DNA from: a virus
Strand: one strand, 5' to 3'
Virus record (IMG/VR): IMGVR_UViG_3300035698_003040
Location: 1-21,961 of that record
DNA: 21,961 bases
The position numbers and the translations under genes are program-made. The notes under the pieces are model-generated. The model was not told the origin of the DNA. It worked only from the letters and a program-made list of their open reading frames with translations, and did no database searches. Shown piece by piece: positions 8,158 to 18,321 of the stretch (the stretch's first letter is position 1; each line of letters opens with the position of its first letter).

Positions 8158-10662
8158 TTATCTACTTCCTATCACTATGCCGTTATCTACACCACGACTA
8201 ACTGATCTAGCTATTTCTGTATCATCTGCTTGTAATACTATACTTACGTTTCCTATTGCTGCTACCACGGCTTCCACCATAGAGTCGTTAGATGCTCCTG
8301 AGGTACCTTCTACCTGAGTTTGACCATTAGCTATACTTAATAATCTACTTTGTTGAGATCTATTTATTATAGCTTCGCCAGAATTAACTCTTACAGGTAC
8401 ATTATCTCCTGTAAAGGAGTTACCTCCCACTATTCCTCCATCCTCAAATCTAGCCACACTAGCTACCGTAGAGGCAGCAATAGCTCCTAAAGCGAAAGTT
8501 GTACTGGTCGTAGTTAACGCGTTTAACTTAAGTGCTGCGGCTGCTACCGCTGCAGGTCCAAGAGGCCCTAAACCTATACCTGCTCCTGCTGCCACTATTC
8601 CATTAGCCGTTCGAGCAAGTCCGTCATTAATAAATACTTGAGCTACTGCGAATGCCTTCTGTAATGCCAGTGCTGCAAACTGATTATCACCTGTTAATGC
8701 CAATATAGCGTCTGCGCCCTGTTGTGCAGCACTAAGTTGGTTTCTATTTATCTCTTTATCTAAAGTCTTTTTTCTTGTGGCGAAGTCTTTTTGGAAGGAG
8801 AGCTTTTTCTTTTCTATTGCTAATTCTTTCTTGGCACCTATTTCCAAAACCTTTAATCTTTGTGTTTCAGCATCCTCTATTAATGCTGCCTTCTCAAGCT
8901 GCGCCTGAAAAGCTATGTCAAACTTACTAGACTCAATTGTAACTAATCGGTCTAACTCCTCCTGACTAGCTGTTGCATCAGATTCCTTGATCCTTAATTT
9001 ACGTTCCTCTTCTAATAAGTCTTGCTCTGCTTTTAAAGCGTTTATATTAGCATTTAATTCAGCCTGTTTTTTAAGCTCCTCATCCGTAGATATAGGTTTA
9101 TCAGGGAAGCCATTATCTTTAGGGATCTCTAAGTCTCGCCCAGGATCTAAGGTAGGGCCTAAGTCTGTTACTTTGGCTCCACCTGTAGGATCAACCTCAG
9201 CTCTTAATTTCATAGCGGCAGCTAGTTCTTCCTCTGCCTTTATATTCTTCTCTATTGCATTTCGTTGAGCATTTAGTTGGGATATTAGTATAAGTGTTCC
9301 ATTTTGACCAAATGTTTTATACGCTGATTCTAAACTTTTTAATTTACCCTCTAGTCTCTTGAGAGCAGCTTCGTTAGTCTCTGTAGCACCTAATGAAAGA
9401 TTTAAATCATCAACCATAATCTGTATAGCTGGAGCTATGTGGGCAAATGCATTAGCAGCCTTATTAGTCACTGTGTTAGATAATTTACGTGTACTAGACT
9501 CTAGTGTTCCAAAGGCCTTTGCAGCTTCTATATTAGTAGCAGTATTCTCACTAGCTCCTGTTGTGGCTAGATTAAGACCTTGCTCAACCTTATCAAATCT
9601 CTCGATCATCGGCCCGAGGACTTTGTTAATCTCATCACCAACTAACTTCATCTTACTAAGGGATATACTAGCGGTGCCTGACTCTTTATTTATCCGAGCT
9701 AACCCTTTGACGAAGGATAAGAATACACCTTTAGCATCATCTTGAAATGTTCTTCTAAGTTGTTTACCAGTTTGACCAGTAATTTTCTGTAATTCCTCAA
9801 ATCTCGAGCCACCTAGTAGAATTACTTCTTCTATTTCTCTTAAAGACCTTCCTATAACAGATCCACCTAATTGCGCTTGAACACCTAATGCTTTTAAGGC
9901 TCCTGCAAATCCTAATACATCTGCTGCAGAGAACTTGAACTTTACAGTAGCTCTACCTACTTCATTAGCAACTCTAAGTATTTCTGATTCACTTGCTTCT
10001 AAATTGTTACCTACATTAACTAAAGCCGACCCTACTCTATCTATATCTTCAACAGTTGTAGTTGTCAGGTTTATTAATCGCGCTAAAGATATGGCAGCTT
10101 GCTCACTACTTACATTTGTAGTAGCACCTAACTTAGCAATAGTCTCGGTAAATTTCTTAAGGTTAGCTGATCCTCTAATTCCTAATTGACCTGCCACATT
10201 AGCTATACCCAGTAATTCTTTAGTGCTTACAGGTATGCTCGAACTAAGCTTCTGAATCTCCCTACCGAAAGATCCCAACTCTTTTTCAGATAAATTAGTT
10301 GTCTTACTTACGTTTACAAGCCCATTTTCAAAATCTATAAATGCAGCAGTTGAAAATTGTGTTAATTCTATTAATTTCCTTAGAACAACAAAACCTGCCC
10401 CAATAGCCAGATAGAATTTTACAGAAGCCTCGGCACCCGCCTTCTTAGAATCTGAATTCTTTCTGGTGGCCGATGTGTTATTATCTATAGCTTTAGCATT
10501 AACATCAGCAGACTTAGCAGACTTCTGGAAGGATTTAGATATTCCTGATTGATTCTTCTTCACTCTACGTTCTAGAAGCTCCAATCTATTGTTCAATTGA
10601 TTTAAAGATTGCTCAAACGCCTTAGTTATGAGTTCAATATCAACGGTAACATCACCTGCCAT
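8158..10662 (-). CDS. Tail tape measure protein (834 aa)
   Basis: This is the length ruler of the tail and is later ejected with the DNA. It starts with a helical, lysine-rich coiled coil (residues 1-70), then a hydrophobic helix near 80-105 and the TP901-type core with repeated GIANVAGQLGIRG and similar helices (residues 140-330). A long Glu/Lys-rich coiled coil spans about 430-640. An Ala/Gly-rich hydrophobic part (670-740) may insert in the host membrane. The closing motif is FEDGGIVGGNSFTGDNVPVR, then NSGEAIINRS, typical of this family. Its start overlaps the chaperone stop as TAATG, the usual order. At the rule-of-thumb 1.5 angstrom per residue, it predicts a tail near 125 nm. Confidence 0.93.
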   Translation of the reverse strand: MAGDVTVDIELITKAFEQSLNQLNNRLELLERRVKKNQSGISKSFQKSAKSADVNAKAIDNNTSATRKNSDSKKAGAEASVKFYLAIGAGFVVLRKLIELTQFSTAAFIDFENGLVNVSKTTNLSEKELGSFGREIQKLSSSIPVSTKELLGIANVAGQLGIRGSANLKKFTETIAKLGATTNVSSEQAAISLARLINLTTTTVEDIDRVGSALVNVGNNLEASESEILRVANEVGRATVKFKFSAADVLGFAGALKALGVQAQLGGSVIGRSLREIEEVILLGGSRFEELQKITGQTGKQLRRTFQDDAKGVFLSFVKGLARINKESGTASISLSKMKLVGDEINKVLGPMIERFDKVEQGLNLATTGASENTATNIEAAKAFGTLESSTRKLSNTVTNKAANAFAHIAPAIQIMVDDLNLSLGATETNEAALKRLEGKLKSLESAYKTFGQNGTLILISQLNAQRNAIEKNIKAEEELAAAMKLRAEVDPTGGAKVTDLGPTLDPGRDLEIPKDNGFPDKPISTDEELKKQAELNANINALKAEQDLLEEERKLRIKESDATASQEELDRLVTIESSKFDIAFQAQLEKAALIEDAETQRLKVLEIGAKKELAIEKKKLSFQKDFATRKKTLDKEINRNQLSAAQQGADAILALTGDNQFAALALQKAFAVAQVFINDGLARTANGIVAAGAGIGLGPLGPAAVAAAALKLNALTTTSTTFALGAIAASTVASVARFEDGGIVGGNSFTGDNVPVRVNSGEAIINRSQQSRLLSIANGQTQVEGTSGASNDSMVEAVVAAIGNVSIVLQADDTEIARSVSRGVDNGIVIGSR

Positions 10663-11554
10663 TACTTACTAACCTTTTTCATCATCTCTGATTCATATTC
10701 TATTTTTAAACCATCTATTAAGGACACTATTTCCATAATCTTATTTGGTTGTCTATTTAATGTACCATCAAAAGGCATAACACCCTTACCCATAGCGTCT
10801 GATAAACTAAAGAAGTAATTCATATCTGCATGTTTATAATTACAAAAACATGAATGATATTCAATATTCTCGACCGTATACTTGGCTTCGACTTCATATT
10901 TATTACATCCATTTGCTTCGTTTATCATATGTCTTGCTTGCTCATAGTTAGTTCTTTTACTAAAATCTCTTACTTTCTGTTCACACCTAAATTTCTCATC
11001 CATAAGGTAATAAAAGTTGGCGTTTATTGTTACATACTCATATATACTCATCGTTGAAAGTTCTATTATTCGCTGACTTATATACTCCCATAGTGGATGT
11101 ATGAAAAAATTCCCACTAGGGCTTACTGCTTTTTTTCTGACTCATCCTTAACAAAACTCACACCTTCTAGGTTTTCTTGAGTAAAAGGATCAGACAGTAA
11201 GTTATCATTAATTCCATTTAATAACTGTGAACAAACGCTTACTAATTTACCGTGATTTCCTAGGTTAAGTAGGTCGTCAACGCACGAATCAGTAAGATAT
11301 CGGCTGTTCTTCTCATCAAACTTTAACTTGTAATTCTTTCCTTCACTATTCTTAATTCCTTGAATACCTTTGATGCCATACTTGAGGGCTAAGGCGGCAC
11401 ATTTCATTGCGGCTTCCATATTCCCATTCTGTGCTAGTAACATTTCTCTATTCAATTCTAATTTCTCTTTGAAAGAAAGAGGTGAAATGTCTATCACTAG
11501 ATCGTCCACCTTAATTGCTATTGTATCATCAATGCTGTAAACTATTGTCTCCAT
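10662..11554 (-). CDS. Tail assembly chaperone long form made by -1 frameshift (gpGT-like, 297 aa)
   Basis: The long chaperone form links tape measure and tail tube during tail assembly. Ribosomes read from the ATG at 11554 to the A AAA AAG site at 11135-11129, slip back one base and continue at G 11129 in the second frame. No stop codon occurs between the slip and the ATG-like codon at 11051, so the fusion has 142 residues of the first frame plus 155 of the second. The second part reads GNFFIHPLWEYISQRIIELS before MSIYEYVT; no ribosome binding site of note precedes that inner ATG, and the HPLWEYI part fits a T-type domain. This matches lambda G/GT organisation. Independent start at 11051 is possible but less likely. 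Confidence 0.88.
11087..11149 (-). promoter_or_regulatory. Programmed -1 ribosomal frameshift signal
   Basis: Three classical parts are visible. An internal Shine-Dalgarno-like AAGGA (11149-11145) lies nine bases before the slippery heptamer A AAA AAG (11135-11129), which is in the correct zero-frame phase. Seven bases later a stem-loop (11121-11087) pairs CCC-TAGTGG with CCACTA-T-GGG, nine base pairs with a one-base bulge and a 16-base loop. The zero-frame stop lies inside the spacer. The layout is like Escherichia coli dnaX. Confidence 0.9.
11123..11554 (-). CDS. Tail assembly chaperone short form (gpG-like, 143 aa)
   Basis: The unshifted product is a 143-residue acidic, helical protein. 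A strand-rich start (VYSIDDTIAIKVDDLVIDIS) precedes helices around FKEKLELNREMLLAQNGN and MKCAALALKYG. The family coats the tape measure and recruits tail tube subunits. It ends ESEKKQ at the TAA 11125-11123, three bases beyond the slippery heptamer, exactly where a frameshift signal belongs. A strong AAGGAG site precedes the ATG, as expected for the abundant short form. Order (tube, chaperones, tape measure) is the standard one. Confidence comes mainly from the frameshift architecture, not from sequence likeness. Confidence 0.85.
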   Translation of the reverse strand: METIVYSIDDTIAIKVDDLVIDISPLSFKEKLELNREMLLAQNGNMEAAMKCAALALKYGIKGIQGIKNSEGKNYKLKFDEKNSRYLTDSCVDDLLNLGNHGKLVSVCSQLLNGINDNLLSDPFTQENLEGVSFVKDESEKKQ

Positions 11555-11574: not shown

Positions 11575-12777
11575 TTAACTAAAACTTACGTATATTTCTT
11601 CTTGTGATCCATCTCCGCCTCTATTAGCGTTATATGTAATCGTTTCTTGTAAAATTCCATCTTGATCAGCTTCACCTAATTCTGTAGTTAAACAGTTTGG
11701 AAGATAAAAACTAACAACATCAGAATATTCACCTGTTGTAGTGGTAGGAACATATGCTGTCCAAAATAATGAGAAGTTTTCAGTATTCTTAAACTTATCA
11801 AAGTTGGCAACACTATCATCCTGCTTATAAGGATTAATAGTTCCAGATACAGATCTCTCTGTAATTCTAGAAGATATCTTACCTGATTCAGAACACGTAC
11901 TAGTAATAAATCCTAGTGAATTCTCTACGCTTACTGCTACTTCATTAACATCGATTAAATTGCCGTCTTGATAAACACATGCCTTCAAAATAACAGGAGG
12001 TAATGCTTGATCAAAAGCTGCTGTAAAAGGAGCTGCGGCTAAAGTTCTATCGAAGTCTAATCCTTCAAATCCAAAAGCTAAATCGGCTAATTGACCAGTA
12101 GTAAAGTTATTTAAAGCCATACTAGTACACTTAGCACCAGTTGCTATTTCTCTAACTGCATTTTCTACATACTTAGTTATTGAAAGACTTGGATGACCAT
12201 CATTAGCAGTAGTATAAGTAGAATGCGCCATGATCTCAATACCGTCTACATAAGCTCCTGCAGGATCAGCTATTAGTAGTGAAACTTCAGTTTCGCCTAC
12301 AGTGTTATTAACTGATTCAATCGGTGAACTATGATAAGCTCCTGCTCTCTTAGTAGTAATGATGTCTCCGATACTATATTTACTAGCGTCGGCATCAGCC
12401 AACCTAATAATTTTATCCGAATAAGCATTTCCACCTGAGTCGTCTGCATCACTCATGATAATAGCGGCTTCACTATTCTTAGCACCTAGGCAAGATTCTA
12501 GTAATGGACCGTACTCAGGCTCAGCACCCTCAACTCCATTTGCTTTCATCTCTACAGGAATAGTACCTGTTACGGACCTCATACCAGTTCTAGGTGTCGA
12601 TTTTCCGATTGATGCGTTTAGATTGTTTCTATCTAGTAATTCTTTAGATGGAGTCATTTCTAACCCATCTGATAATGGCTGAATGAATGAAGTACCTGAT
12701 GTAGGATCTACATGAGTCCCTGCGGTTACTTCTATTTCAACAGCTACGGTTGTATTTTCCTTTACGGTGAATCCCAA
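11575..12777 (-). CDS. Major tail tube protein (400 aa)
   Basis: Predicted to form the tail tube by stacking rings. The start is TTG at 12777-12775, chosen because AGGAG lies six bases upstream; the protein begins MGFTVKENTTVAVEIEV. The segments LEMTPSKELLDRNNLNASIG and TPRTGMRSVTGTIPVEMKAN are typical of tube proteins of this type. The C-terminal half has further beta segments, including VSFYLPNCL and ETITYNANRGGDGS. At 400 residues it is longer than the 150-250 of many tubes, so residues about 100-200 may form an extra surface domain (AIIMSDADDSGGNAYSDKII and on). Placement between the terminator candidate and the chaperones supports the call. Confidence 0.82.
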   Translation of the reverse strand: MGFTVKENTTVAVEIEVTAGTHVDPTSGTSFIQPLSDGLEMTPSKELLDRNNLNASIGKSTPRTGMRSVTGTIPVEMKANGVEGAEPEYGPLLESCLGAKNSEAAIIMSDADDSGGNAYSDKIIRLADADASKYSIGDIITTKRAGAYHSSPIESVNNTVGETEVSLLIADPAGAYVDGIEIMAHSTYTTANDGHPSLSITKYVENAVREIATGAKCTSMALNNFTTGQLADLAFGFEGLDFDRTLAAAPFTAAFDQALPPVILKACVYQDGNLIDVNEVAVSVENSLGFITSTCSESGKISSRITERSVSGTINPYKQDDSVANFDKFKNTENFSLFWTAYVPTTTTGEYSDVVSFYLPNCLTTELGEADQDGILQETITYNANRGGDGSQEEIYVSFS

Positions 12778-13243: not shown

Positions 13244-14100
13244 TATCTCGGCATCTTGTTAGGTTGTATATTACTCTGTGACTCAAAAGGATCTATTTCC
13301 CCATCATCATTCTGATCTATTGATAATTGTGATAACCCATTAATTAAATTTGAGTATTCACCTCTATAAAATAATGATTTCTGATTCCAAACATCGTCAG
13401 GATCATCTGATAAGTTAAAGAATATTTTAGAAATGGCTAAATATGTTGCCGCCTGTCTAATCTCCTGTACATCTAGCATGTCCCAAGGAGTCAGTACTAG
13501 GTTACGACCATTTTCATTATCTCCACGCTTAATAAAACCTCTATCTCTAAACACTTGTACTACTTCATCCCTAGCCGCTTGATGAACTAGTATGTGACTT
13601 GATGCACCCTGTAAAAATGGCTCCTGATCAACACAATTTAAGATTCGCTTTAAATCCTGGTCATCGGCAAATATAATATTTAATCCATTAATAGTTATAG
13701 CTTCAGTACTTGTATCTGTAGTCATCTTATACCAAAAGGCTGTACCCATGCCAGATTCCGGCTCATTTTCTATATGAGTAGCATTAGTATCTTGTCTATC
13801 CCATTGAATGAATCCGCTTCTCTTAAGATTTCTAGTATCATCGTCAAAGTTATTTAGAGCCTCTGTACCACTAGCTATGAATCTCTGTAAATCTATATCT
13901 CCATCAATTGTACTAGCTGTTGCAAGATCAATATATAAAGTATTAATAGGCTTATCGTATCCAACATAAATTATGTCACCTGCTTTAAAGGTAAGGGTAT
14001 AATCATCCCTACCGTAATCTACTACATCTCTAGAAAATTCTACAACGGCATTAACACCATCTTTGTAAAATAGTTTTAATTTATTCTTTGGATTAATCAC
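13243..14100 (-). CDS. Probable head-tail connector/adaptor with EF-hand-type loop (285 aa)
   Basis: The N-terminal half is beta-rich with a FKAGDIIYVGYDKPINTLYI strand pair. The C-terminal helices (VLTPWDMLDVQEIRQAATYL, then FFNLSDDPDDVWNQKSLFYR) resemble the helical part of head-tail adaptors that bind the portal. Residues 262-273 are DQNDDGEIDPFE, which fits the EF-hand calcium loop at positions 1, 3, 5, 6, 8, 9 and 12. The start is GTG in a GTGA overlap with the gene before. Connector function is inferred from position (just before the terminator and tube) and helix pattern. Calcium binding is inferred from the loop only, and there is no paired second loop nearby. Confidence 0.6.
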   Translation of the reverse strand: MINPKNKLKLFYKDGVNAVVEFSRDVVDYGRDDYTLTFKAGDIIYVGYDKPINTLYIDLATASTIDGDIDLQRFIASGTEALNNFDDDTRNLKRSGFIQWDRQDTNATHIENEPESGMGTAFWYKMTTDTSTEAITINGLNIIFADDQDLKRILNCVDQEPFLQGASSHILVHQAARDEVVQVFRDRGFIKRGDNENGRNLVLTPWDMLDVQEIRQAATYLAISKIFFNLSDDPDDVWNQKSLFYRGEYSNLINGLSQLSIDQNDDGEIDPFESQSNIQPNKMPR

Positions 14101-14390
14101 CCTAACAACCTCATAATTGAATAAAGAACACCTAACAACAACCCTGTAGAGGATAATAGCTTAAGTACCTTTGATTTTAGTTTGTCTCCGAATAATTTAC
14201 TTTCTTCTAATGTTGATATTCTTCCTTCGCCTTTAGTCAGACTTTTCTTAACTTCACTAACAGTGGACTCAATTACAGTCATCCTAATCTCTTCACGAGC
14301 ATGCCTAGCAATATCTTTCTCACTCTTAGTTCGCTGCCTATCATCAATCTTAGAAACTAAATCATATATTAAATCTATTTTTTCGCTCAT
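14097..14390 (-). CDS. Small coiled-coil membrane protein, XhlA/holin-like (97 aa)
   Basis: Residues 1-75 are highly charged and helical, likely a coiled coil. Residues 77-96 (KLLSSTGLLLGVLYSIMRLL) form one hydrophobic segment at the very C-terminus. Such a plan, coiled coil then C-terminal membrane helix, is that of XhlA-type lysis proteins and some Rz-like or tail-anchored proteins. It starts in an ATGA overlap with the other small membrane gene, so the two are co-translated. No lysin is in the window, so a lysis role is possible, not shown. An alternative is a virion-membrane interacting factor. Confidence 0.6.
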   Translation of the reverse strand: MSEKIDLIYDLVSKIDDRQRTKSEKDIARHAREEIRMTVIESTVSEVKKSLTKGEGRISTLEESKLFGDKLKSKVLKLLSSTGLLLGVLYSIMRLLG

Positions 14391-14644
14391 TTTTTAGTCC
14401 AGTCCCATATCTCTTTAGCACCTGTCTTCTTAGTTAAGGACTTTTTGATGTGATCTGTTTGTCCTGCCATTAAGAATATTAAATTTATGCTATATGCCAT
14501 GACTGCTAGTGCTGCATTATTCTTTCTTGATACTCTAGCTCTAGCTATTCGGTGACTAAGTGTCTCGTCTGGATTACCACCTAATGATGTATTAAGTAAT
14601 TGATCTAATGAGACTAATATATTAAATATGTATTGTAATATCAT
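14387..14644 (-). CDS. Small phage membrane protein (85 aa)
   Basis: The first 20 residues are hydrophobic (MILQYIFNILVSLDQLLNTS), then a conserved-looking GGNPDETLSHRIARAR motif, then a second hydrophobic helix near residues 45-60 (AALAVMAYSINLIFLMAG). From memory, the LDQxxNxxxGGxPDETLS pattern occurs in small proteins of several unrelated phages and often lies near lysis genes; its function is not known to me. It overlaps both neighbours by ATGA. A weak AGGA site lies nine bases before the ATG. With the 97-aa gene it may form a holin-like pair. Confidence 0.68.
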   Translation of the reverse strand: MILQYIFNILVSLDQLLNTSLGGNPDETLSHRIARARVSRKNNAALAVMAYSINLIFLMAGQTDHIKKSLTKKTGAKEIWDWTKK

Positions 14645-15291
14645 ACTGTAGGTTCCTGTAAGTGAAAGTTACATTTAAAATCTACATCTATTATACCTGT
14701 AGATATATAAACCACTCTTAGAATCATGCCTGTAGGTAATAAGGGCGATATCTGTGGAGGATCTATTTTCTCTTGTTTTTGTCTATCACTATTAACATAC
14801 CAAGTAGACCCAAACTGATTTACTACACCTAAAGTAGGATGTACTATTTGAAAAGTCATATGGTCTGCCCATGCGTGATTGTTTAAATATATTTCTACCG
14901 CATCTATATACGCATCTGCTGTTAATGTGTAATCTAAATTTGTTGTAGTAGTTTTTACTGCGGTGCCTGAAAAACCTTTACCATCAAAACTAAGAGAGGC
15001 ATCTACATACATGCCTTTTATTCTGGTAACTGGATAACCTTCCGCGTCTAATTCGGCAAGGGCTTCTTCAGGATATGGTGTTCCATCATGGTTACTTATT
15101 AATGCTACAAGTGTAGTTATTTCCTCGGTATCTAAACTTGATTCAAAAGTTACAGTTAAAGTATCTCCACTAGTACCTATATTCCCTAATTGTTTTAGTA
15201 TAGTACTAGCAGATATAGAAGCCATTAACTTCTCAGAATTCAACAACGAATTAGAAGTGTCTGTGGCAATGCTAAAACTATGCGCTGACAT
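14641..15291 (-). CDS. Capsid/fibre structural protein sharing N-terminal domain with the collagen-like fibre (216 aa)
   Basis: Residues 5-75 match the start of the neighbouring collagen-like protein: FSIATDTSNSLLNSEKLMAS here, with L-x-V-x-F and ISNHDGTP at the far end of the domain. The rest (residues 75-216) is a beta-rich domain with two aromatic segments (NNHAWADHMTFQIVHPTLGV, NQFGSTWYVNSD). The start chosen is the ATG at 15291-15289 overlapping the TAA of the fibre (TAATG), with GGAG nine bases upstream; an in-frame start five codons earlier has no binding site. It is probably a fibre or spike built on the same attachment base. Function is inferred. Confidence 0.7.
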   Translation of the reverse strand: MSAHSFSIATDTSNSLLNSEKLMASISASTILKQLGNIGTSGDTLTVTFESSLDTEEITTLVALISNHDGTPYPEEALAELDAEGYPVTRIKGMYVDASLSFDGKGFSGTAVKTTTTNLDYTLTADAYIDAVEIYLNNHAWADHMTFQIVHPTLGVVNQFGSTWYVNSDRQKQEKIDPPQISPLLPTGMILRVVYISTGIIDVDFKCNFHLQEPTV

Positions 15292-16628
15292 TAAGCTACT
15301 CTCCATAAAAGTATTGATAAATTAGCAATGGTGGCGGTACTTCCGCTTTGCTCGCTAAAATCGGTATCTATCTGATTTATTCCCGAACCTAAAGTTATAA
15401 CATCACTCCAATGGTTCCATAATATCTGGTTAGTTCCTGTATCCGTAGGTTCCTGCTGATGAGTGAATAAAGTAACAGTATCATTTATTTGTACCCTAGC
15501 CCTAAAGTCATCACTAGTATTAGACTGTCTCCAACTATACTGAACTCTAATATAATAATCGCCTGCTGGTAATGATGTTGTATCAAAAGATGCTTTTTCA
15601 ACGTAAGCATCACTAGTTGTTGAGGCAGATGCTAAGGATTCAAATCTCTGATATTCAGTTCCAAATAATGTTGCTGGACCAGTTGCTCCAGTGTTACCTT
15701 GGATACCTTGAATTCCCTGGTCACCCTGTATACCTTGATCACCTTGATCACCCTGTATTCCCTGTATTCCTTGAAGACCTTGAATCCCGTCATCGCCTTG
15801 AATACCCTGGATACCTTGAATACCTTGGGGTCCTATTACACCTTGTATACCTTGCGGTCCTACTAGTGTGTTTATAAAATCCTGTTCTGTTCCCGTATTA
15901 CCTATATCTAACCAAGTTTCGTAAGAAGAGGTAATACCTTGAGGTCCTGCGTCACCTAAAACTGATATTGAATGAACTTCGTCCATTGCAACATCTATAG
16001 CGGTAGAATTATCTCCTTGACCTATATAAACATCGAAACCATTTACAGTTCTATTATCAACAAATACGTTAGTATCTGTATTACTACTCATATCATATAA
16101 TTGAGCAGATATATTATAATTAGCATCACTAGCTACTGTTGTAAAAGTATAAGTATAAGTTCCTACCCCTGTTCTAACAACATTTAAACCTCTAGCTTTT
16201 AATATTGTTCCATTAGCATCTGTGCTAGAGAAGGCAAATAAACCAAATCCAGATACGCCTGCTGGACCTATAGATCCTTGAGGTCCAGTTAAAACATTAC
16301 TCAGATCTAAAGGTAATCTTAAAGTGCCGGAATCATCAACCCAATCAATTACTTCTCCATCTTGATCTACGAACTGCAACTTAGAAGCATCATCTACTCC
16401 AGGATTACCATCGTGTGCGGCTATAGTTGAAGTAAGCTCTAATTCTTCTGCACCAGATAAATCTATTCTAAATTCTATTTCTAAAGCATCTGCATTAACA
16501 TCTAAGCTAATGCCTTGTAATGCTATTGTAATATTTTCATTAGACTGGATAGCTTTTGAAAGCTTATCACTTGCAACCACTCCATTTAAAGTGTCAGTAG
16601 AAATAGTATAATTAAATATTGTTGCCAC
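15291..16628 (-). CDS. Collagen-like fibre protein (445 aa)
   Basis: The N-terminal domain (residues 1-75, beginning FNYTISTDTLNG) is probably the virion attachment base. A short GPQGSIGPAGVSG run occurs at 115-127. A beta domain follows to about 230. SYETWLDIGNTGTEQDFINT, a common entry to phage collagen stretches, leads to 21 Gly-X-Y triplets (residues 257-319). The last 125 residues form a beta-sandwich tip (PAGDYYIRVQYSWRQSNTSD and on). The start is GTG at 16628-16626, overlapping the previous TAG. Position right after the capsid block suggests a capsid (head) fibre rather than a tail fibre, but this is inferred. Trimeric collagen helices in phages are known to be stable without hydroxyproline. 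Confidence 0.85.
   Translation of the reverse strand: MATIFNYTISTDTLNGVVASDKLSKAIQSNENITIALQGISLDVNADALEIEFRIDLSGAEELELTSTIAAHDGNPGVDDASKLQFVDQDGEVIDWVDDSGTLRLPLDLSNVLTGPQGSIGPAGVSGFGLFAFSSTDANGTILKARGLNVVRTGVGTYTYTFTTVASDANYNISAQLYDMSSNTDTNVFVDNRTVNGFDVYIGQGDNSTAIDVAMDEVHSISVLGDAGPQGITSSYETWLDIGNTGTEQDFINTLVGPQGIQGVIGPQGIQGIQGIQGDDGIQGLQGIQGIQGDQGDQGIQGDQGIQGIQGNTGATGPATLFGTEYQRFESLASASTTSDAYVEKASFDTTSLPAGDYYIRVQYSWRQSNTSDDFRARVQINDTVTLFTHQQEPTDTGTNQILWNHWSDVITLGSGINQIDTDFSEQSGSTATIANLSILLWRVA
15672..15860 (-). repeat. Collagen-like Gly-X-Y repeat region
   Basis: Twenty-one uninterrupted triplets, mainly GIQ, GPQ and GDQ, make a 63-residue stretch (residues 257-319 of the fibre). The DNA is a degenerate nine-base periodic repeat on the plus strand (ccttgaataccctg-like), so the number of copies could vary between strains by slippage. 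Confidence 0.9.
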
Positions 16629-17083
16629 TAACCTATTACCTTAGCTATTGTTATACCTGTAAATTGTATTTTACCTGTACCACCATCATCTGTTTGTCCA
16701 AATCTAACTCTGATTTGTATTACAGTGGGAGAAGTTATATCTACTATATTAAATCCAGTTCTAAGTTGAAACTCATTTGCAACACTTAAACCATCTCTAA
16801 CATCAACCAATTCTATCCAAGAACCTGAAGTACCTTCTCTATATTGTATTTGTAAACCTACTTGCTTCTCTTTATTACTTTGACCTATCTGACTTGAATG
16901 ATCTATCTTGTATTTACCTATAGGAAGTATGGTTGTAGTCACAGGAAAATTATTTCTAGATACCCAACCATTGCTAGTAGTAGTTTGTATAGGATCTTCA
17001 CTGAAAGCCTGGAAGGAAGTACTTTCCTCCTGGCTAAAAGTTTTTAATTTACCGGACTCTAGTCCTATAGGTCTAAACGCCAT
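16628..17083 (-). CDS. Beta-sandwich capsid fibre/decoration-like protein (151 aa)
   Basis: The chosen ATG at 17083-17081 (MAFRPIGLESGKLKTFSQEE) is one base after the preceding stop. An in-frame start 54 bases upstream overlaps the previous gene, adds an unlikely polar/hydrophobic prefix and is less likely, although AGG lies near it. The body (residues 25-151) has TTSNGWVSRNNF, then LPIGKYKI, then a beta sandwich, and resembles the tip domain of the collagen-like fibre (TTSDAYVEKASF, then LPAGDYYI). It therefore seems to be a stand-alone copy of a fibre tip. It may be a decoration protein or ligand domain. Family identity is not recognised. Confidence 0.65.
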   Translation of the reverse strand: MAFRPIGLESGKLKTFSQEESTSFQAFSEDPIQTTTSNGWVSRNNFPVTTTILPIGKYKIDHSSQIGQSNKEKQVGLQIQYREGTSGSWIELVDVRDGLSVANEFQLRTGFNIVDITSPTVIQIRVRFGQTDDGGTGKIQFTGITIAKVIG

Positions 17084-17084
17084 A

Positions 17085-17594
17085 TTATAATTGTACGCAG
17101 TCGTCAATATCGGTGTTAATTTCATTATCATCAACATATGAACCTAATAATTGATGAATTGACCCAATATCTACAGCAGGATCTAATGGGGTTGTTACTG
17201 CACTTCCGGCTGTCCCTAAATAAGCTCTAGTTCCGGCTGTTGAAGCCGGAGCGGCTGTATTAGGACCTTCAAAGAATACTGTTGCGTTAGCGGCTGAGGC
17301 GAAAGCAGCAAGTACAAATCCATGTGCTTCTCTACCATTTGAATTATCGGCCAGTCTTACTTTAACAGTTCCGGTGTCATCAAAAATATTAACATAATCA
17401 CCAGCAGATAAAGCTTCACTAGCCTCTGCTATCTTTACGTCTGGTCCAACTCCTACTGGTAATACTGAAGGATCTAATTTCCCTGTACCATCTAGAGCTA
17501 CTATATCTCCTGCTTCTCCGACTCCTGTACTAGCTACAGTAGCTTCTGTCATTTTATCTTTTCCATTTGCGAGTGTTTTATACCTGTCTGCCAT
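17085..17594 (-). CDS. Putative head fibre / decoration protein (169 aa)
   Basis: Residues 15-50 include VGEAGDIVALDGTGKLDPSV and LPVGVG, a sequence style seen at the start of many phage head fibre and tail spike proteins. The remainder (ALSAGDYVNIFDDTGTVKVR, then REAHGFVLAAFASAANATVF) is close in pattern to DUF2190-like decoration proteins, with small beta barrels and Ala/Gly-rich turns. A strong AGGAG lies five bases before the ATG, overlapping the stop of the upstream gene. It is located soon after the major capsid, fitting a capsid surface role. Assignment is by pattern, not a firm match. Confidence 0.62.
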   Translation of the reverse strand: MADRYKTLANGKDKMTEATVASTGVGEAGDIVALDGTGKLDPSVLPVGVGPDVKIAEASEALSAGDYVNIFDDTGTVKVRLADNSNGREAHGFVLAAFASAANATVFFEGPNTAAPASTAGTRAYLGTAGSAVTTPLDPAVDIGSIHQLLGSYVDDNEINTDIDDCVQL

Positions 17595-17602
17595 TTCTTC
17601 TC

Positions 17603-18013
17603 CTAAAGTATTGTTAAATTATCTATATCTATGTAAATTGCACCTGCACCTAATGATCTTCCTATTGGAACACTATGTCCTGTGATAGGTGGAACATCTG
17701 TAATGGCTCCATTGTTTCCTAAGAAGAGGCAGACATTAACGGCAAAAGTAAAGCTAGCATCTGAGATCTGCCCAAATGTTAATACTGTTAACTCATTACC
17801 TATGGTTGCTGAAGTGACACTTATACCTATTGTTTGAGCATCATTTAGTAACTCTTTATCGGCGATTTCTATATTAGTAGTATTCACCATTGTAACCATC
17901 TTTAAAGCACTTACATTTTCAGAAGCTACATAGGCTTTCTGTAAAGTGCCGGGATCTATTATATCCCCAATTAAATCTAGAAGCCCTGTAGTAGGGTTAA
18001 ACTGTAAACTCAT
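17603..18013 (-). CDS. Small capsid fibre/decoration-like protein (136 aa)
   Basis: The N-terminus MSLQFNPTTGLLDLIG is a short anchor motif (FNPxTGxLDLxG) that recurs in phage structural proteins. Residues 45-136 follow the same beta pattern as the next gene: TIGISVTSATIGNELTVLTF, then CLFLGNNGAIT and a final GAIYIDIDN. It resembles DUF2190-like decoration proteins. The ATG overlaps the upstream gene as ATGA and has no good binding site of its own, so it is probably translated by coupling. Function is inferred from position next to the capsid gene. Confidence 0.62.
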   Translation of the reverse strand: MSLQFNPTTGLLDLIGDIIDPGTLQKAYVASENVSALKMVTMVNTTNIEIADKELLNDAQTIGISVTSATIGNELTVLTFGQISDASFTFAVNVCLFLGNNGAITDVPPITGHSVPIGRSLGAGAIYIDIDNLTIL

Positions 18014-18321
18014 ACTCGTTCTACCGAGGAGATGAACTTCTTATTAGCATTGGTATATATTACCGTTATGGTGGCTGTAGTAGCTCCACCTGATCCACCT
18101 GCCTTATATTCATATACTTCAGTTAAAGTATTAGGAAAACTGGCATCTATATAATCAAAAATTACACCATTTAACAAAGATCCCGATAAAGGGTTTGTTG
18201 GTATAGGGTTATTCTGGTCATTATTTATTTCAGACACGGTATTAACAGCTACATCACTATTACTATCCTCAATAAATTTATTATCTTCATTGTCAGTTCT
18301 TATTGGTGATTTAGCTGTCAT
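18010..18321 (-). CDS. Hypothetical structural protein (103 aa)
   Basis: The first 45 residues are polar and probably disordered (KSPIRTDNEDNKFIEDSNSD and on). Residues 50-103 form a compact beta domain (VIFDYIDASFPNTLTEVYEY, then the loop KAGGSGG and TATITVIYTN). It has no membrane or catalytic signal. The start overlaps the short upstream ORF as TAATG and the end overlaps the next gene as ATGA. I do not recognise the family; as a capsid-proximal gene it may encode a linker or decoration protein. Confidence 0.6.
   Translation of the reverse strand: MTAKSPIRTDNEDNKFIEDSNSDVAVNTVSEINNDQNNPIPTNPLSGSLLNGVIFDYIDASFPNTLTEVYEYKAGGSGGATTATITVIYTNANKKFISSVERV

Follow-up and report, generated by a model that had tools for sequence, protein, structure and literature searches.

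A probable programmed −1 ribosomal frameshift between G- and T-like tail assembly chaperone domains in a family of uncultivated tailed phages

Two reading frames lie between the genes for the tail tube protein and the tape measure protein in the phage DNA studied here, and the locus raises the question of whether the second of them is a gene in its own right or is translated as a −1-frame extension of the first. The window, i.e., the whole stretch of DNA analysed, is the 21,961-base record IMGVR_UViG_3300035698_003040 of an uncultivated tailed phage, and its content is that of a siphovirus structural region encoded on the minus strand. Read from right to left, the gene order is capsid genes, tail tube, ORF1, the −1-frame ORF2, tape measure, and distal tail genes (Table 1). 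The ATG of the tape measure gene overlaps the stop of the T-like frame (10662), and the same order, with two ORFs between the tube and tape measure genes, is found in relatives. From this position, and by analogy with phage lambda, ORF1 and the −1 frame would encode the counterparts of gpG and of the T domain of gpGT; the assignment to tail chaperone genes in an initial annotation of the sequence is supported by the tube-G-T-tape measure succession and by the same arrangement in 25 relatives. Elsewhere in the window, a stretch of small unidentified genes (14097-18321) harbors a gene for a collagen-like protein with GIQ repeats (15291-16628, minus strand; Pfam Collagen, E 2e-9), which has the capsid gene on one side and the head-tail genes on the other and whose position is taken by other genes in the related contig L002. 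Two small proteins, also encoded on the minus strand, match PHROG families of unknown function, namely phrog_3342 (14387-14644; E 7e-12) and phrog_4368 (17603-18013; E 9e-13).

Table 1. Features of the tail chaperone locus in the window and corresponding regions in three named phages (positions of the latter refer to their own records)
Feature	Positions	Strand	Basis
Tail tube protein gene	11575-12777	-	Pfam PF18906 Phage_tube_2, E 2.5e-12
ORF1, G-like tail assembly chaperone, 143 aa (predicted zero-frame product)	11123-11554	-	Family alignment of 25 members; tube/tape measure position
SD-like AAGGA, 9-nt spacer, upstream of heptamer	11145-11149	-	Sequence; SD-like pairing enriched here family-wide
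Slippery heptamer A AAA AAG, in phase (A|AAA|AAG)	11129-11135	-	Sequence; in-phase −1 heptamer in 26/26 distinct family members
−1 frame, T-like domain, 155 residues after the predicted shift	10662-11129	-	Open frame; start-codon survey; alignment
Stem-loop, 9 bp, one bulged T (11090), 16-nt loop	11087-11121	-	Sequence and fold
ATG (start chosen by ORF callers, separate 129-aa gene)	11049-11051	-	Without SD; inside conserved domain, past first predicted helix
Tape measure protein gene	8158-10662	-	Pfam PF10145, E 2.8e-13, and several PHROG tape measure families
Frameshift region, L035, Alteromonas phage P24	5619-6258		
Frameshift region, L036, Agrobacterium phage JP1	4405-5180		
Frameshift region, L037, Rhizobium phage P11VFA	4403-5236		

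ORF1 is preceded by a Shine-Dalgarno (SD) sequence of its own (AAGGAG at 11565-11560) and ends with TCA GAA AAA AAG CAG TAA, the TAA occupying positions 11125-11123. The heptamer A AAA AAG thus lies one codon ahead of the zero-frame stop. Open already a short way upstream of the heptamer, the −1 frame takes in the ATG at 11051 as an in-frame codon and continues to the stop at 10662, so that a ribosome slipping at the heptamer would produce a fusion of 142 + 155 = 297 amino acyl residues whose junction reads SEKKAVSPSGN. Every coordinate of the three-part cassette that had been described from the DNA alone, i.e., a heptamer in correct phase, AAGGA nine nucleotides upstream and a stem of nine base pairs seven nucleotides downstream, proved correct on re-reading, as did the continuity of the second frame through the junction and the length of the fusion. 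For the window by itself, 2% of codon shuffles produce a strong heptamer in phase within the final 12-13 codons.

Direct searches with the G- and T-like proteins in phages and viral contigs found no relatives, and therefore the search was anchored on the tail tube protein. By this route, after removal of near-identical contigs, a family of 26 distinct members was assembled, consisting of the window and 25 metagenomic virus contigs. A search for relatives among genome contigs found none. In all 26 members an in-phase −1 heptamer stands at the end of ORF1, and the homologous second domain is always encoded in the −1 frame; the phase is thus kept throughout the relatives with intact genes, where its loss would have spoken against the reading given above. 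Most members employ A AAA AAG (21), the others A AAA AAC (2), G GGA AAG (2), or C CCA AAG (1), and the distance from heptamer to zero-frame stop varies from 0 to 9 codons. Codon shuffles of each ORF1 tail yield such a site by chance with a frequency of 0.7-10% (median 4% over the 26 members). Runs of six or more As in slip phase number 23 of 24 in the last 20 codons of ORF1, compared with 0 of 4 in gene bodies.

The elements flanking the heptamer are less uniform. The spacing of 9 nt between AAGGA and the heptamer falls within the range of 9-14 nt in which SD stimulators of −1 shifts are active (PMC5009743). Upstream SD-like pairing beats control windows from the member's own genes in most of the family (median rank 0.08), whereas downstream folding varies from member to member (median rank 0.24); the corresponding combined P values, about 3e-9 and about 3e-5, treat related loci as independent and hence overstate significance. 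In the window, the 5′ arm (11121-11113) and the 3′ arm (11096-11087) of the stem are separated from the heptamer by the 7-nt spacer CAGTAAG and fold with −11.7 kcal/mol. Strong downstream folds are present in the window, L002, L022, L017, L019, and L026, and many other members are without one. Between L002 and L022 the loop varies while both arms of the hairpin are kept. A comparison of the stem across related phages had been proposed at the outset; over the 26 members, family-wide conservation was not found, strong folds occurring in about one quarter of them, and the stem therefore does not count among the conserved elements. Across the family, the heptamer is universal, the SD-like sequence common, and the stem optional.

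This unevenness bears on a variant that is fully compatible with ribosomal frameshifting, namely that the stem is incidental, the SD-like sequence is the sole stimulator, and the shift proceeds at a low, lambda-like level. The significance of the window stem is modest, as 26 of 200 dinucleotide shuffles of the 63-nt stretch fold as well (the stem beats 87% of them), and in only about 6 of the 26 members does the fold rank among the top 5% for that member's own genes. On the other hand, the window fold has rank 0, i.e., none of the control windows sampled from the two genes equals it, only 0.9% of synonymous recodings fold as well, so that it surpasses 99% of them, and its spacing and size suit a stimulator. 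Weighing both sides, we consider a purely incidental stem rather unlikely, though a serious contender.

Judged from the sequence, the arrangement is of the lambda G/GT type, which is known and widespread in long-tailed phages, and the site described here seems to be a further example. The heptamer of lambda is G GGA AAG, and L025 and L026 use the same one. As in lambda, the two frames of the window occupy the interval between tube and tape measure genes, a heptamer ends the first ORF, and the second domain is encoded only in the −1 frame. Conservation of G-T frameshifting extends widely across long-tailed phages, and for lambda the ratio of gpG to gpGT is 30:1 (PMC5009743). Unlike lambda, the window has a stem and an SD-like sequence in addition, and its efficiency may therefore depart from the 30:1 of lambda; a further difference is that its proteins resemble no known family in sequence at a detectable level. 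Comparison of G and T with Pfam and PHROG gave nothing reliable, a sequence search against the PDB gave no match, and fold searches with the models of G (pLDDT 93.1) and T (pLDDT 89.6) gave no significant match. In the search with the G model, the HK97 tail assembly chaperone 2ob9 ranked third at a non-significant level (E 2.3, probability 0.15).

Three named phages show a comparable organization, although the similarity of their tube proteins is only distant (21-30% identity). As in the window, ORF1 ends with an in-phase heptamer, A AAA AAC in Alteromonas phage P24 and Agrobacterium phage JP1 and G GGA AAC in Rhizobium phage P11VFA, and a cysteine-bearing −1 domain with a G...G...QP motif is situated ahead of the tape measure gene. 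None of the three records joins the frameshift; in that of P24 the −1 domain is unannotated, and those of JP1 and P11VFA contain hypothetical genes that are not joined.

The layout of the cassette also resembles that of E. coli dnaX, with A AAA AAG, an upstream SD-like sequence at a spacing within the published range, and a stem-loop a few nucleotides downstream. In dnaX, however, the shift leads to the short product, whereas in the window the zero frame would give the short and the shift the long one; moreover, the loop of the window stem spans 16 nt, and the family does not conserve the stem. A high, dnaX-like efficiency (about 50%) might be read into this layout, that of lambda being low. 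That the window cassette operates at tens of percent as opposed to the few percent of lambda, with a G:GT ratio far from 30:1, and that some T domains in addition contain a metal site, is a combination that seems improbable to us. As regards the putative metal site, exactly four cysteines in register (C-x21..28-GC-x18-C-x-C) occur in the T domains of the window, L008, L013, L021, L025, and L026, and L033 has a variant set (C-x2-C...GC...C). The remaining members are without this set, and most of them have a DPRLLxRGY-like stretch in its place. The cysteines look like a putative metal site in one version of the T domain.

If the second frame were a separate gene, translated from the ATG at 11051 or by reinitiation past the first stop, no frameshift would be needed, and the in-frame ATG does provide an ORF of 129 amino acyl residues. 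The beginning of the T domain speaks against this. An alignment of the 26 T domains places the onset of conservation about 10 residues past the slip, with the motif xWxYIxxxIxxISSLSxxEY, whereas the first ATG of the window in the T frame is codon 26 and no earlier start codon exists. In the T model the first helix comprises residues 12-25 and hence lies entirely upstream of that ATG, which itself is without SD. In the family, −1-frame coding is conserved upstream of any start codon: six members (L009, L011, L012, L016, L021, and L026) have neither ATG nor GTG within the first 45 T codons, and the candidate starts that do occur in the early T region are nearly all without SD. Since the peptide preceding it is conserved, the ATG at 11051 is, on the evidence of the alignment, not the start of the T domain, which would instead be reached by frameshifting; the N-terminal extension of the second domain that had been predicted is thereby borne out. 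In L002 (6583-6585) and L022, the stop of G overlaps an ATG in the T frame (TAATG), directly ahead of a perfect hairpin with conserved arms. Reinitiation is thinkable there and could possibly add some free T beside frameshifting, but it is not the general route. As two separate genes would also leave the in-phase heptamer of all 26 members unexplained, this reading is very unlikely. Least probable of all is transcriptional slippage, in which RNA polymerase would stutter on the seven As at the window site and add an A, so that a fraction of the mRNAs encodes the fusion in the identical frame, because the run is limited to six As in most relatives and to three in L013, L025, and L026, whose heptamers are C CCA AAG or G GGA AAG, and because every member keeps its heptamer in phase although a polymerase needs no codon phase. 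Reinitiation and transcriptional slippage were thus rejected as main mechanism on the start-codon survey, the A-run lengths, and the heptamer phase.

We are therefore highly confident that a programmed −1 ribosomal frameshift at A AAA AAG yields two tail assembly chaperones from one start. In the proposed mechanism, the majority of ribosomes would terminate at the TAA and release the G-like protein, and some would slip one base back in tandem on the heptamer, with the help of the upstream AAGGA and possibly of the downstream stem, and continue to the GT-like fusion. In lambda, the tape measure protein is a binding partner of both G and GT, and T recruits tube subunits (PMC5009743). By analogy, coating of the tape measure protein would fall to the G part and recruitment of tail tube subunits to the T part.

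The tail-chaperone frameshift thus seems to persist in deeply diverged uncultivated phages whose proteins escape all family models. That annotation would miss the extent of the second domain had been foreseen, and it agrees with what was found, as ORF callers would start at the internal ATG; gene calling in contigs of this kind, and in no fewer than three records of named phages, overlooks the second domain or cuts it short. The 26 natural sites, which have the slippery heptamer in common and vary in SD-like sequence and stem, could be used for measuring the contribution of each stimulator.
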